The notes beneath the pieces are model-generated. The model searched no databases. It saw only the letters and a list, made by a program, of their open reading frames with translations, and had not been told where the DNA came from. A DNA stretch of 64,000 nt from Wenjunlia tyrosinilytica. GTDB lineage: Bacteria > Actinomycetota > Actinomycetes > Streptomycetales > Streptomycetaceae. The translations under genes were made by a program, and so were the position numbers. Shown piece by piece: positions 14,368-20,317 of the stretch. Numbering within the stretch: position 1 is the first letter of the stretch; every line of letters starts with the position of its first letter. Location: assembly GCF_014646055.1 (NCBI RefSeq), contig NZ_BMMS01000005.1:62001-126000 (forward strand), read 5' to 3'.

Positions 14368-14383
14368 AGTGAAGAAGTTCACA
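14368..14383. promoter_or_regulatory. Crp-type binding site
   Basis: AGTGA-AGAAGT-TCACA matches the TGTGA-n6-TCACA cAMP-receptor-protein palindrome at 9 of 10 positions. It lies about 145 bp upstream of a c-di-AMP riboswitch. Streptomyces Crp is known to control cell-wall hydrolase genes such as rpfA that share this arrangement. Confidence 0.6.
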
Positions 14384-14525
14384 GATGGCCGTGGAAGCTG
14401 CGAATCCGGGCGGTCGATGACGCAGGATCTTCAGTCGACGACAAGACCCCGTCACCGAGGCGGGGCGGTCCGGGCGGACGCCGAGTCCTGCCGCCACCCG
14501 GACGCAGGTCGAGCAACTCGAGTCG

Positions 14526-14645
14526 GCAGGAGCGGGAGACCCAAGCACGACGAGCCGTGAACCCAGCGGCTCTTGGGGTGAAGCCACGCGTGTGGCCGGG
14601 CAACTTCGCCAGCCCGAACCCGACAGGTCACCTTTCGCAGGCGGA
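14526..14645 (+). ncRNA. c-di-AMP riboswitch (ydaO-yuaA class)
   Basis: The transcript just before the NlpC/P60 gene contains the conserved blocks of this class in order: GGGAGACCCAAGC near the 5' side, TTGGGGTGAAGCC, a GC-rich P-stem (ACGCGTGTGGCCGGGC), then GAACCCGACAGGTCA and a closing CGCAGGCG. In Streptomyces such riboswitches precede rpf and NlpC-type hydrolase genes and reduce expression when c-di-AMP is high. Boundaries are approximate by eye. A covariance-model search would settle it. Confidence 0.85.
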
Positions 14646-14662
14646 TGACGAAGGGCTTACGC

Positions 14663-15136
14663 ATGTCTGCGCGTACACGCATGCCTGCGCTCATCTCCCG
14701 GGCCGGAGCCACGTCCGCCCTCACCGCGGCGGCTCTGGCCGGAACGGCTCTCGTGCCGTGCCTGACCAGTTCGGCCGAAGCGGCCACGGTCGCGACCAAG
14801 GCACTGAAGATCGCCGCCTCGAAGAAAGGATCTCCCTATCAGTACGGCGCCGCCGGGCCGCACCGGTTCGACTGCTCGGGCTACACGCTCTACGTGTTCA
14901 AGAAGGCGGGCAAGAAGCTGCCGCGCACCGCGGCGCAGCAGTACAACAGGACCCGCCACATCTCCGCCAAGTCACGCAAGGCGGGCGACCTGGTGTTCTT
15001 CCACTCCGGAAGGAACGTCTACCACGTCGGCATATACGCCGGTAAGGGCAAGATCTGGCACTCTCCTCGGCCCGGCAGGACCGTGAGCCGGGAGAAGATC
15101 TGGACCGGCAGCGTCTGGTACGGGCGCGTGAGGTGA
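14663..15136 (+). CDS. secreted NlpC/P60 peptidoglycan endopeptidase
   Basis: A 157-residue exported cysteine peptidase that cleaves within or between peptidoglycan stem peptides. Signal peptide about residues 1-35 (ALTAAALAGTALVPCLTSSAEA), then a compact NlpC/P60 domain with catalytic Cys in FDCSGYTLYVF, His in YHVGIYAG and a third polar residue (His) in IWHSPRPG. The ATG at 14663 is preferred because GAAGGG lies 7 nt upstream; starting at 14645 would add six residues, one of them a TTA codon, and overlap the riboswitch end. Control by Crp and c-di-AMP is inferred from the leader. Confidence 0.92.
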   Translation: MSARTRMPALISRAGATSALTAAALAGTALVPCLTSSAEAATVATKALKIAASKKGSPYQYGAAGPHRFDCSGYTLYVFKKAGKKLPRTAAQQYNRTRHISAKSRKAGDLVFFHSGRNVYHVGIYAGKGKIWHSPRPGRTVSREKIWTGSVWYGRVR

Positions 15137-15308: not shown

Positions 15309-16244
15309 ATGCTCACCTCGAAGCCCTTCCGCATCATCGCGTTCGCCTGCGCCCTGGCAGCTGTGTTCGCCCTGGCCCTGGTCGTCGGAGGCAGACACCG
15401 CGACGGCGCCGGGGCGGGCGGTCCGGGGCACTCCATGAACGACCCCTCCATGGGCGGGCACTCCTCGGGCGGGGACTCCTCGGGCGGCGGACAGCACGGC
15501 GGGCACCACCACGGCGGACCCGGAACCACGGGTTCCGGTGCCGGGTTGAAGGCGTCCGCGGGCGGCTACCGCCTGGTGCCGCTCACCTCGTCGGTGCCGG
15601 AGGGCAGGGCGACCGCGTTCCGCTTCCGCGTCGAGGGCCCGGACGGCGGTGCCGTCACCTCGTTCGTCCCCGAGCAGACCAAACCGATGCACATGTACGC
15701 CGTCCGCTCCGATCAGACGGGTTTTCAGCACCTCCACCCGGCGATGGCCGCGGACGGGACCTGGAGCGGGGAGTTGAAGGGGCTGAAGGCGGGCTGGTGG
15801 CGTGTGTACACCTCCAGCGTCCCGGAGGCGGCGCGGGGGAAGGGGCCGATGGTGCTCAGCACCCCCTTCCGGGTCGGCGGAGACACGACCGTGAACGCGC
15901 TGCCTGCGCCGTCGCGCACCACCGAGGTCGACGGCTACCGGCTCACGCTCGGCGGCGAGCCGAAGGCGAAGCGGGTGGCGCCGCTGACGCTGACGGTGAC
16001 GCGCGGCGGCAAGCCGGTCACGGACCTTCGGCCGTATCTGGGCGTGTACGCCCATCTGACGGCCTTCCACGACGGCGACGGGGCGTTCGCCCATCTGCAC
16101 CCGCTCGGGAAGGCGGGCGAGCGGGGAGGCCCGGCACTGAGGTTCCAGGCACTGTTCCCGGACGCCGGCCGATGGCGTCTCTTCGTCGAGTTCAAGGCCG
16201 GTGGCGCCCTGCACACGGCGGCGGTCACGGTGCAGGTGCGATGA
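15309..16244 (+). CDS. membrane-anchored, His/Met/Gly-rich extracytoplasmic protein
   Basis: A 311-residue protein with one N-terminal hydrophobic segment (about residues 7-26), then a low-complexity Gly/Ser/His/Met stretch (GHSMNDPSMGGHSSGG, QHGGHHHGG) and two beta-rich domains that each carry an HLHP motif (FQHLHPAMAADG, FAHLHPLG). A KPMHMYAV segment precedes the first. The pattern suggests an exported metal-binding protein, copper being the natural guess from Met/His clusters, but no named family was recognised. The ATG at 15309 has only a weak GACGGGA upstream. Neighbours give no operon clue. Confidence 0.65.
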   Translation: MLTSKPFRIIAFACALAAVFALALVVGGRHRDGAGAGGPGHSMNDPSMGGHSSGGDSSGGGQHGGHHHGGPGTTGSGAGLKASAGGYRLVPLTSSVPEGRATAFRFRVEGPDGGAVTSFVPEQTKPMHMYAVRSDQTGFQHLHPAMAADGTWSGELKGLKAGWWRVYTSSVPEAARGKGPMVLSTPFRVGGDTTVNALPAPSRTTEVDGYRLTLGGEPKAKRVAPLTLTVTRGGKPVTDLRPYLGVYAHLTAFHDGDGAFAHLHPLGKAGERGGPALRFQALFPDAGRWRLFVEFKAGGALHTAAVTVQVR

Positions 16245-19017: not shown

Positions 19018-20172
19018 TCAGTCCCCGATCGGTTCCCGGGGAGCCGTGCCCACCACCACACCCACCGCTGCGTCCACCTGGGCCGCCGTCAGGTCGGCGC
19101 GGGCGGTCAGGCGCAGCCGGGAGATGCCGTCGGGCACGGACGGCGGCCGGAAGCAGCCGACGGCGACGCCCTGTTCACGGCACCGTTCGGCCCAGCGCAG
19201 GGCGGCCTCGGGTGACGGCGCCCTGACCGAGACCACGGCCGCGTCCGGCGTGCTGGCCAGGAGCCCCGCCGAGGCGAGCCGCTCGGAGAGCTCCCGGGCG
19301 ACCTCGCGGGTACGCACCGGACGCCCGGGCTCCTCACGGATCACCCGCAGGGCCTCCAGCGCCCCGCCCACGGCGGCCGGAGCCAGACCCGTGTCGAAGA
19401 TGAACGTGCGGGCGTTCTCCACCAGGTGCCGGATCACCCGGGCGGGGCCTACCACCGCGCCGCCCTGACTGCCCAGCGACTTCGACAGTGTGACGGTGGT
19501 CACCACGTCGGGCGAACCGGCGAGTCCCGCCGCCGACACCGCTCCGGCGCCGCCCTCCCCGAGCACGCCCAGTCCGTGCGCGTCGTCCACAAGGAGCCCT
19601 GCGCCCGCCTCACGGCACACGACGGCGAGCGCGGCCAGCGGCGCCGCGTCGCCGTCGACCGAGAAGACCGAGTCGGTGACGGCCACCGCACGGCCGTCGT
19701 GACCGGCGAGCGCCTTGGCGAACGCCTCCGGGTCGGCATGCGGGACCACGGCCTTCTCCGCCCGGGAGAGCCGGCAGCCGTCGATGAGCGAGGCATGGTT
19801 GGCCGCGTCCGAGGCGATGAGCGTGCCCGGGCCGGTCAGCGCGGAGACGGCGGCGAGGTTCGCCGCGTAGCCGGAGGCGAAGACGAGCGCCGCCTCGGCC
19901 CCGCACAGCGCGGCGAGCTCGGCCTCGAGCTCGCCGTGCAGCGCGGTGGTGCCGGTGACGAGACGGGAGCCGGTCGAGCCCGCCCCCCAGCGCAGTGCGG
20001 CGTCCGCGGCGGCACGGGTGACCCGGGGGTGGTGGGTGAGCCCCAGGTAGTCGTTCCCGGCAAGGTCGAGCACGGGATCGTCGGCCGGTCGCGGCCGCAG
20101 GGTTCGGGAGAGTCCGGCTCGGCGGCGCTGCTCGGCGTGCCGGTCGAGCCAGTCGAAAGGTGCCTCGGGCAT
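19018..20172 (-). CDS. bioF: 8-amino-7-oxononanoate synthase
   Basis: A 384-residue PLP enzyme condensing pimeloyl-CoA or pimeloyl-ACP with alanine, the first dedicated ring-assembly step of biotin synthesis. Alpha-oxoamine-synthase features: GNDYLGLTHHP, GSTGSRLVTGTTALHGELE, VDDAHGLGVLGEGG, and the PLP lysine in TVTLSKSLGSQGG. The ATG at 20172 starts MPEAPFDWLDRH. It is transcribed divergently from bioB across about 145 bp; a possible -10 (TAGGTT) lies at 20205-20210 on this strand. Confidence 0.95.
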   Translation of the reverse strand: MPEAPFDWLDRHAEQRRRAGLSRTLRPRPADDPVLDLAGNDYLGLTHHPRVTRAAADAALRWGAGSTGSRLVTGTTALHGELEAELAALCGAEAALVFASGYAANLAAVSALTGPGTLIASDAANHASLIDGCRLSRAEKAVVPHADPEAFAKALAGHDGRAVAVTDSVFSVDGDAAPLAALAVVCREAGAGLLVDDAHGLGVLGEGGAGAVSAAGLAGSPDVVTTVTLSKSLGSQGGAVVGPARVIRHLVENARTFIFDTGLAPAAVGGALEALRVIREEPGRPVRTREVARELSERLASAGLLASTPDAAVVSVRAPSPEAALRWAERCREQGVAVGCFRPPSVPDGISRLRLTARADLTAAQVDAAVGVVVGTAPREPIGD

Positions 20173-20317
20173 GCGGTGATCCTGGAGGTCGAGGGTTTGG
20201 GGGGAACCTAGCGCGACTCGACCCTCGGTGGCGTGTGGCCATGTACACATACCCATTGGTCGATCTTGTCCGTTCCGTCACTGGTCTTGGGACGGCCCTT
20301 ACGTCAGGATCTCGCCC

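Follow-up and report, generated by a model that had tools for sequence, protein, structure and literature searches.

A predicted Crp box and a ydaO-class c-di-AMP aptamer upstream of an NlpC/P60 hydrolase gene in Wenjunlia tyrosinilytica

The rpfA gene of S. coelicolor and S. venezuelae is described as being under the control of both Crp and a c-di-AMP riboswitch (St-Onge et al. 2015, St-Onge and Elliot 2017, as cited in PMC5693915 and PMC10117811). This riboswitch is of the OFF type according to PMC10117811 and PMC11481543, and for S. coelicolor rpfA St-Onge and Elliot reported termination, not translational control, as relayed in PMC10117811 and PMC9960051. The idea of a hydrolase gene answering to two second messengers is also already known from C. 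glutamicum, where nlpC (cg2402) carries a translational c-di-AMP riboswitch together with a site for GlxR, the cAMP-dependent Crp homologue (PMC9960051). In M. tuberculosis, CRP controls rpfA (PMC4117774), in whose leader a ydaO homologue is predicted (PMC6009663). More generally, seven hydrolases are controlled by ydaO riboswitches in S. coelicolor and six in S. venezuelae and S. lividans (PMC10117811, PMC11481543, PMC8079986), translational control being assumed for Streptomyces (PMC8079986). Among these ydaO-controlled Streptomyces hydrolases, the published accounts that we found report a Crp input solely for rpfA.

The locus described here lies on contig C5 of the 8.49 Mb genome of W. tyrosinilytica, in a stretch of 64 kb that was analysed as a whole (hereafter the window); the closest relatives among the compared genomes are Streptomyces and allied genera. 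As in Streptomyces rpfA, from the same bacterial family, a Crp input and a ydaO riboswitch, here both predicted, share one leader before a wall hydrolase gene. However, the rpfA enzyme is a lysozyme-like Rpf whereas an NlpC/P60 peptidase is encoded here, and in place of the termination reported for rpfA we find no terminator and a P1 helix adjacent to the Shine-Dalgarno sequence. The resemblance to C. glutamicum nlpC extends to the enzyme family, the riboswitch and a Crp-type site, predicted from sequence in our case, but cg2402 heads an operon of seven genes and is additionally controlled by MtrA and EsrR; at the present locus we recognised no MtrA box. The combination of Crp control with a ydaO-type leader ahead of a wall hydrolase gene, again predicted here, is likewise shared with M. 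tuberculosis rpfA, which differs in encoding an Rpf enzyme and in that its two inputs come from separate reports. With the other ydaO-controlled Streptomyces hydrolases the locus has in common the riboswitch class and the gene function. The parallel with Streptomyces rpfA, already drawn in a preliminary description made from the DNA letters alone, is backed by conservation as well as by this literature. We consider it likely that the hydrolase gene is gated in series by cAMP-Crp, which would turn it on, and by c-di-AMP, which would turn it off, probably at translation. The features of the locus are collected in Table 1.

Table 1. Features of the hydrolase gene and its upstream region (positions in the window)
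Feature	Position	Strand	Basis
Crp-type palindrome AGTGAAGAAGTTCACA, predicted cAMP-Crp box	14368..14383	.	1 mismatch to TGTGA-N6-TCACA; GTG-N8-CAC kept in orthologs; fixed spacing to -10-like box
Putative -10 hexamer CAGGAT	14423..14428	+	[CG]A[AG][GT]AT conserved at fixed distance from palindrome
5'-leader hairpin CCCCGTC-ACCGA-GGCGGGG, conserved	14447..14465	+	Conservation block in 81-sequence alignment; in minimum-energy fold
c-di-AMP (ydaO/yuaA) riboswitch aptamer, revised span from P1 to P1	14479..14643	+	RF00379 match and P1/P2 re-registration
P1 5' strand CGCC, pairs with GGCG 14640-14643	14479..14482	+	CGCC...GGCG throughout paralog groups
Enlarged P2 hairpin, stem TCCTGCCG 14486-14493 / CGGCAGGA 14524-14531	14486..14531	+	Compensatory changes
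CCTTTCG, able to pair with CGAAGGG (14649-14655)	14631..14637	+	Sequence; present in minimum-energy fold
P1 3' strand GGCG, 6 nt before Shine-Dalgarno sequence	14640..14643	+	Sequence; paralog comparison
Shine-Dalgarno sequence GAAGGG	14650..14655	+	7 nt before ATG 14663; invariant among orthologs
Secreted NlpC/P60 peptidoglycan endopeptidase (clan CA, family C40), 157 aa, stop included	14663..15136	+	Pfam PF00877 6e-26; related to solved NlpC/P60 hydrolases

The encoded protein has the features of a secreted NlpC/P60 family member: the PF00877 domain spans residues 56-146 (Pfam, E = 6e-26), and the FDCSGY and YHVGIY motifs (Cys and His motifs) and an N-terminal signal-like segment can be read in its sequence. 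The ORF ends at 15133 and is followed by the stop codon. The most likely start codon is ATG 14663; an alternative in-frame ATG at 14645 lies directly 3' of the P1 3' strand and upstream of the Shine-Dalgarno sequence. An intergenic gap of 658 bp separates the start codon from the end of an M28 peptidase gene (14004), and a His/Gly-rich, probably secreted protein with no Pfam match is encoded downstream (15309-16241). Neither neighbour was found beside the orthologs of the hydrolase gene, and both are therefore probably not part of the system. In at least 16 of 80 ortholog loci, ureC is located around 2 to 3 kb upstream of the hydrolase gene, and an orthologous Streptomyces locus harbors a match to the Rfam family 5_ureB_sRNA (L011, 1-201) near urease genes. 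No orthologue is present in the sole other genome of the same genus that was compared (n = 1).

The preliminary description had placed a Crp palindrome, a ydaO riboswitch and an NlpC/P60 gene one after the other, and all three are recovered in this order. The genome encodes the regulator that a Crp-regulated promoter presupposes, a Crp orthologue of 224 aa with cNMP-binding and HTH_Crp_2 domains, whose entire length is related to structures of M. tuberculosis CRP and of the C. glutamicum GlxR type, as well as one DAC-domain protein of the DisA type. Counts of the motif within the window show no excess over chance, either with up to two mismatches (8 sites versus 11.4 expected) or for GTGA-N6-TCAC (2 versus 1.0), and the box was judged by phylogenetic conservation and permuted-motif controls because such counts are uninformative. 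The second GTGA-N6-TCAC palindrome of the window, a perfect one at 19489-19504, falls within an ORF for a 2-oxoamine synthase-like protein (19018-20256, minus strand) and probably arose by chance. Over the whole genome, both strands together, GTGA-N6-TCACA occurs 49 times and its reversed control pattern twice, an excess suggestive of selection on the motif in this genome. The core GTG-N8-CAC, published as that of Crp/GlxR boxes (PMC10033298), is found at the corresponding place in 78 of 80 orthologs, all from Streptomyces (68-76% protein identity), related and hence not independent. The site nevertheless takes 16 distinct sequences among the 74 tabulated orthologs, and the adjacent bases drift.

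The geometry downstream of the palindrome is compatible with a promoter. The distance from its centre to the end of the [CG]A[AG][GT]AT hexamer is exactly 52.5 nt in 79 of the 80 measurable sequences with the site, window included, whereas its distance from the start codon shifts by over 40 nt, along with the P2 insert. If the hexamer is the -10 box, transcription would start near 14435 and the centre of the palindrome would fall near -60, a spacing that suits a class I activator site. Neither a consensus -35 nor a sigma-70 consensus promoter was found at the locus, and a missing consensus -35 is expected of an activator-dependent promoter. Between the putative transcription start and the aptamer lies the hairpin at 14447-14465, part of a block that is among the most conserved in the leader (81 sequences).

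The riboswitch, previously placed at 14500-14660, was confirmed by a search with the Rfam covariance models, in which RF00379 matches 14505-14658 with 42.8 bits (gathering cut-off 38, E = 1.3e-6). This is the only Rfam hit in the 64-kb window, and of the 20 orthologs scanned, 18 likewise score above the cut-off. The interval first given clipped the aptamer, which begins near 14479: its 5' edge, like that of Rfam, is around 25 nt short. The Rfam alignment sets the 5' strand of P1 at about 14515, around 35 nt too far downstream and with non-canonical pairs, and the class consensus for the start, GCCGAAUCC, has its counterpart further upstream, CGCCGAGTCC (14479-14488). P2 carries a variable insert that the Rfam model does not expect. 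In several hydrolase groups, pair 4 of P2 is canonical in 93 of 97 sequences, as T-A, C-G or G-C, and pair 5 in 86 of 97; this variation represents compensatory change, beyond mere conservation. The element thus belongs to RF00379 by its score above the cut-off, by P1 and P2 helices that both form after re-registration, and by compensatory changes.

Six RF00379 leaders are present in the host genome, and a Crp-like box lies upstream of three of them, those of the present gene, of L004 (Rpf-LysM-M23) and of L005 (long NlpC), and is absent from the other three. The boxes of L004 and L005 read CGTGACCAAGCTCACG and TGTGACCTGCGACACA, respectively. The distribution of the box was surveyed in 132 placed ydaO leaders from 31 Streptomycetaceae genomes, with up to two mismatches allowed and the expectation taken from shuffles. 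In these genomes the box precedes 31 of 42 Rpf-domain genes (3.3 expected), a BLAST-based group named after L004 that is a mixture of Rpf-domain proteins and not rpfA orthologs only, and 23 of 32 long NlpC genes (3.4 expected). It also precedes all 8 unclassified genes, with weak signals in two further groups (6 of 14 and 4 of 11) and a background level in M23 genes (3 of 22, versus 1.7 expected). The earlier suggestion that a broader set of wall hydrolases shares the dual gating accordingly stands for the Rpf-domain and long NlpC groups but not for M23; enrichment of the box before all ydaO-controlled hydrolases was not observed, M23 being at background and two groups weak. At one mismatch or fewer, the half-site TGTGA is found in 27 family leaders and the most frequent of 29 permuted half-sites in 4; among spacer lengths there is a clear preference for 6 bp. 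A further 71 leaders, from Actinomycetes of other families, were obtained by a class-wide genome draw that replaced a phylum-wide draw yielding too few riboswitches, and in these TGTGA again ranks first (13 versus 2 with up to one mismatch, 32 versus 9 with up to two). Judging from these sequences, the pairing of Crp box and ydaO riboswitch recurs widely across Actinomycetes and is not universal.

In the proposed series, cAMP-bound Crp would sit around 60 bp upstream of the transcription start, as conservation and geometry indicate, and, from this class I position, would activate a promoter that is weak by itself. The transcript would then pass under the control of the c-di-AMP aptamer in its 5' leader, where the match is observed and the action is deduced; c-di-AMP would most likely lower translation initiation, as in C. 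glutamicum nlpC. Production of the enzyme would consequently call for high cAMP (germination, carbon shift) together with low c-di-AMP, and would cease at high c-di-AMP. Since the 6 nt between P1 and the Shine-Dalgarno sequence are too few to accommodate a terminator, control probably bears on translation initiation rather than on termination. No terminator-like site was found in the leader, and the Shine-Dalgarno sequence is close to P1 in all hydrolase groups compared.

If the gene behaves like rpfA (PMC11481543), as we expect, c-di-AMP would switch it off. The opposite direction, in which binding of c-di-AMP would open the hairpin formed by CCTTTCG and CGAAGGG and release a masked Shine-Dalgarno sequence, draws on the fold of the window sequence itself. 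This hairpin cannot coexist with P1 and the core helix of the aptamer; the Shine-Dalgarno sequence is paired in the unliganded fold, with an unpaired probability of 0.08, and is freed when P1 is forced (0.59), the reverse of an OFF switch. The CCTT/AAGG complementarity is moreover retained across the aligned orthologs. However, the means over 15 sequences (the window and 14 orthologs) differ little, 0.38 versus 0.49, the orthologs being mixed, and the z-score of the thermodynamic folding is 0.03. Furthermore, all ydaO riboswitches whose direction we found reported in the literature are OFF switches, including those of S. coelicolor rpfA and C. glutamicum nlpC, and we regard an ON switch as unlikely, though still a reading to be reckoned with.

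The other alternatives to gating by cAMP-Crp and c-di-AMP concern mainly the palindrome. The aptamer could be genuine and controlling while the palindrome is bound by another dimeric regulator, such as a different CRP/FNR protein, or by none, and cAMP would then have no input. Several HTH_Crp_2-type proteins are encoded in the genome and the box could serve other CRP/FNR proteins as well; in most Streptomyces orthologs the site reads GGTGAGTAACnCCACA, with less symmetric inner positions, and the published GTG(N)6GNCAC is fitted by 18 of 74 orthologs, on either strand. We hold this to be unlikely given that the conserved core is the published one of Crp/GlxR, that TGTGA comes first of 30 permuted half-sites with a preferred 6-bp spacer, and that the box recurs before Rpf-domain genes, rpfA being reported under Crp (PMC5693915). 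An MtrA box in its place would agree with the control of wall hydrolases by MtrA in actinobacteria, including its action on C. glutamicum nlpC (PMC9960051), and many orthologs contain the short direct repeat GTGAGTGGTGAGTAAC. Yet MtrA sites consist of two direct repeats (PMC5650626), the repeat is missing from the clade of the window, and several orthologs (GTGAAGAGCTTCAC, GTGAGGAGCCTCAC) show changes mirrored on both halves of the element; this very improbable identity was rejected on the ground that the element is an inverted repeat. That a chance palindrome and a degenerate, non-functional aptamer happen to precede an ordinary hydrolase gene would fit the window-level counts and an aptamer score merely 4.8 bits above the cut-off, but is hardly credible, as the box, the spacing and the aptamer core are near-invariant in 80 orthologs while the flanks diverge, which contradicts chance.

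What is new, beyond the known principle, is a further case provided by this NlpC/P60 orthologue group, with a conserved predicted box and a fixed promoter geometry, together with the corrected boundary of the aptamer and a comparative test of which hydrolase groups carry the box. The comparison names the groups with and without it, and the crp, disA and ataC mutants that already exist allow the class-wide pattern to be tested. Since wall hydrolases are potentially lethal to the cell producing them, their licensing is a question at the heart of germination and dormancy. Should the pairing prove general, cAMP, reflecting carbon and energy status, and c-di-AMP, reflecting osmotic and wall status, would be combined at the same genes.
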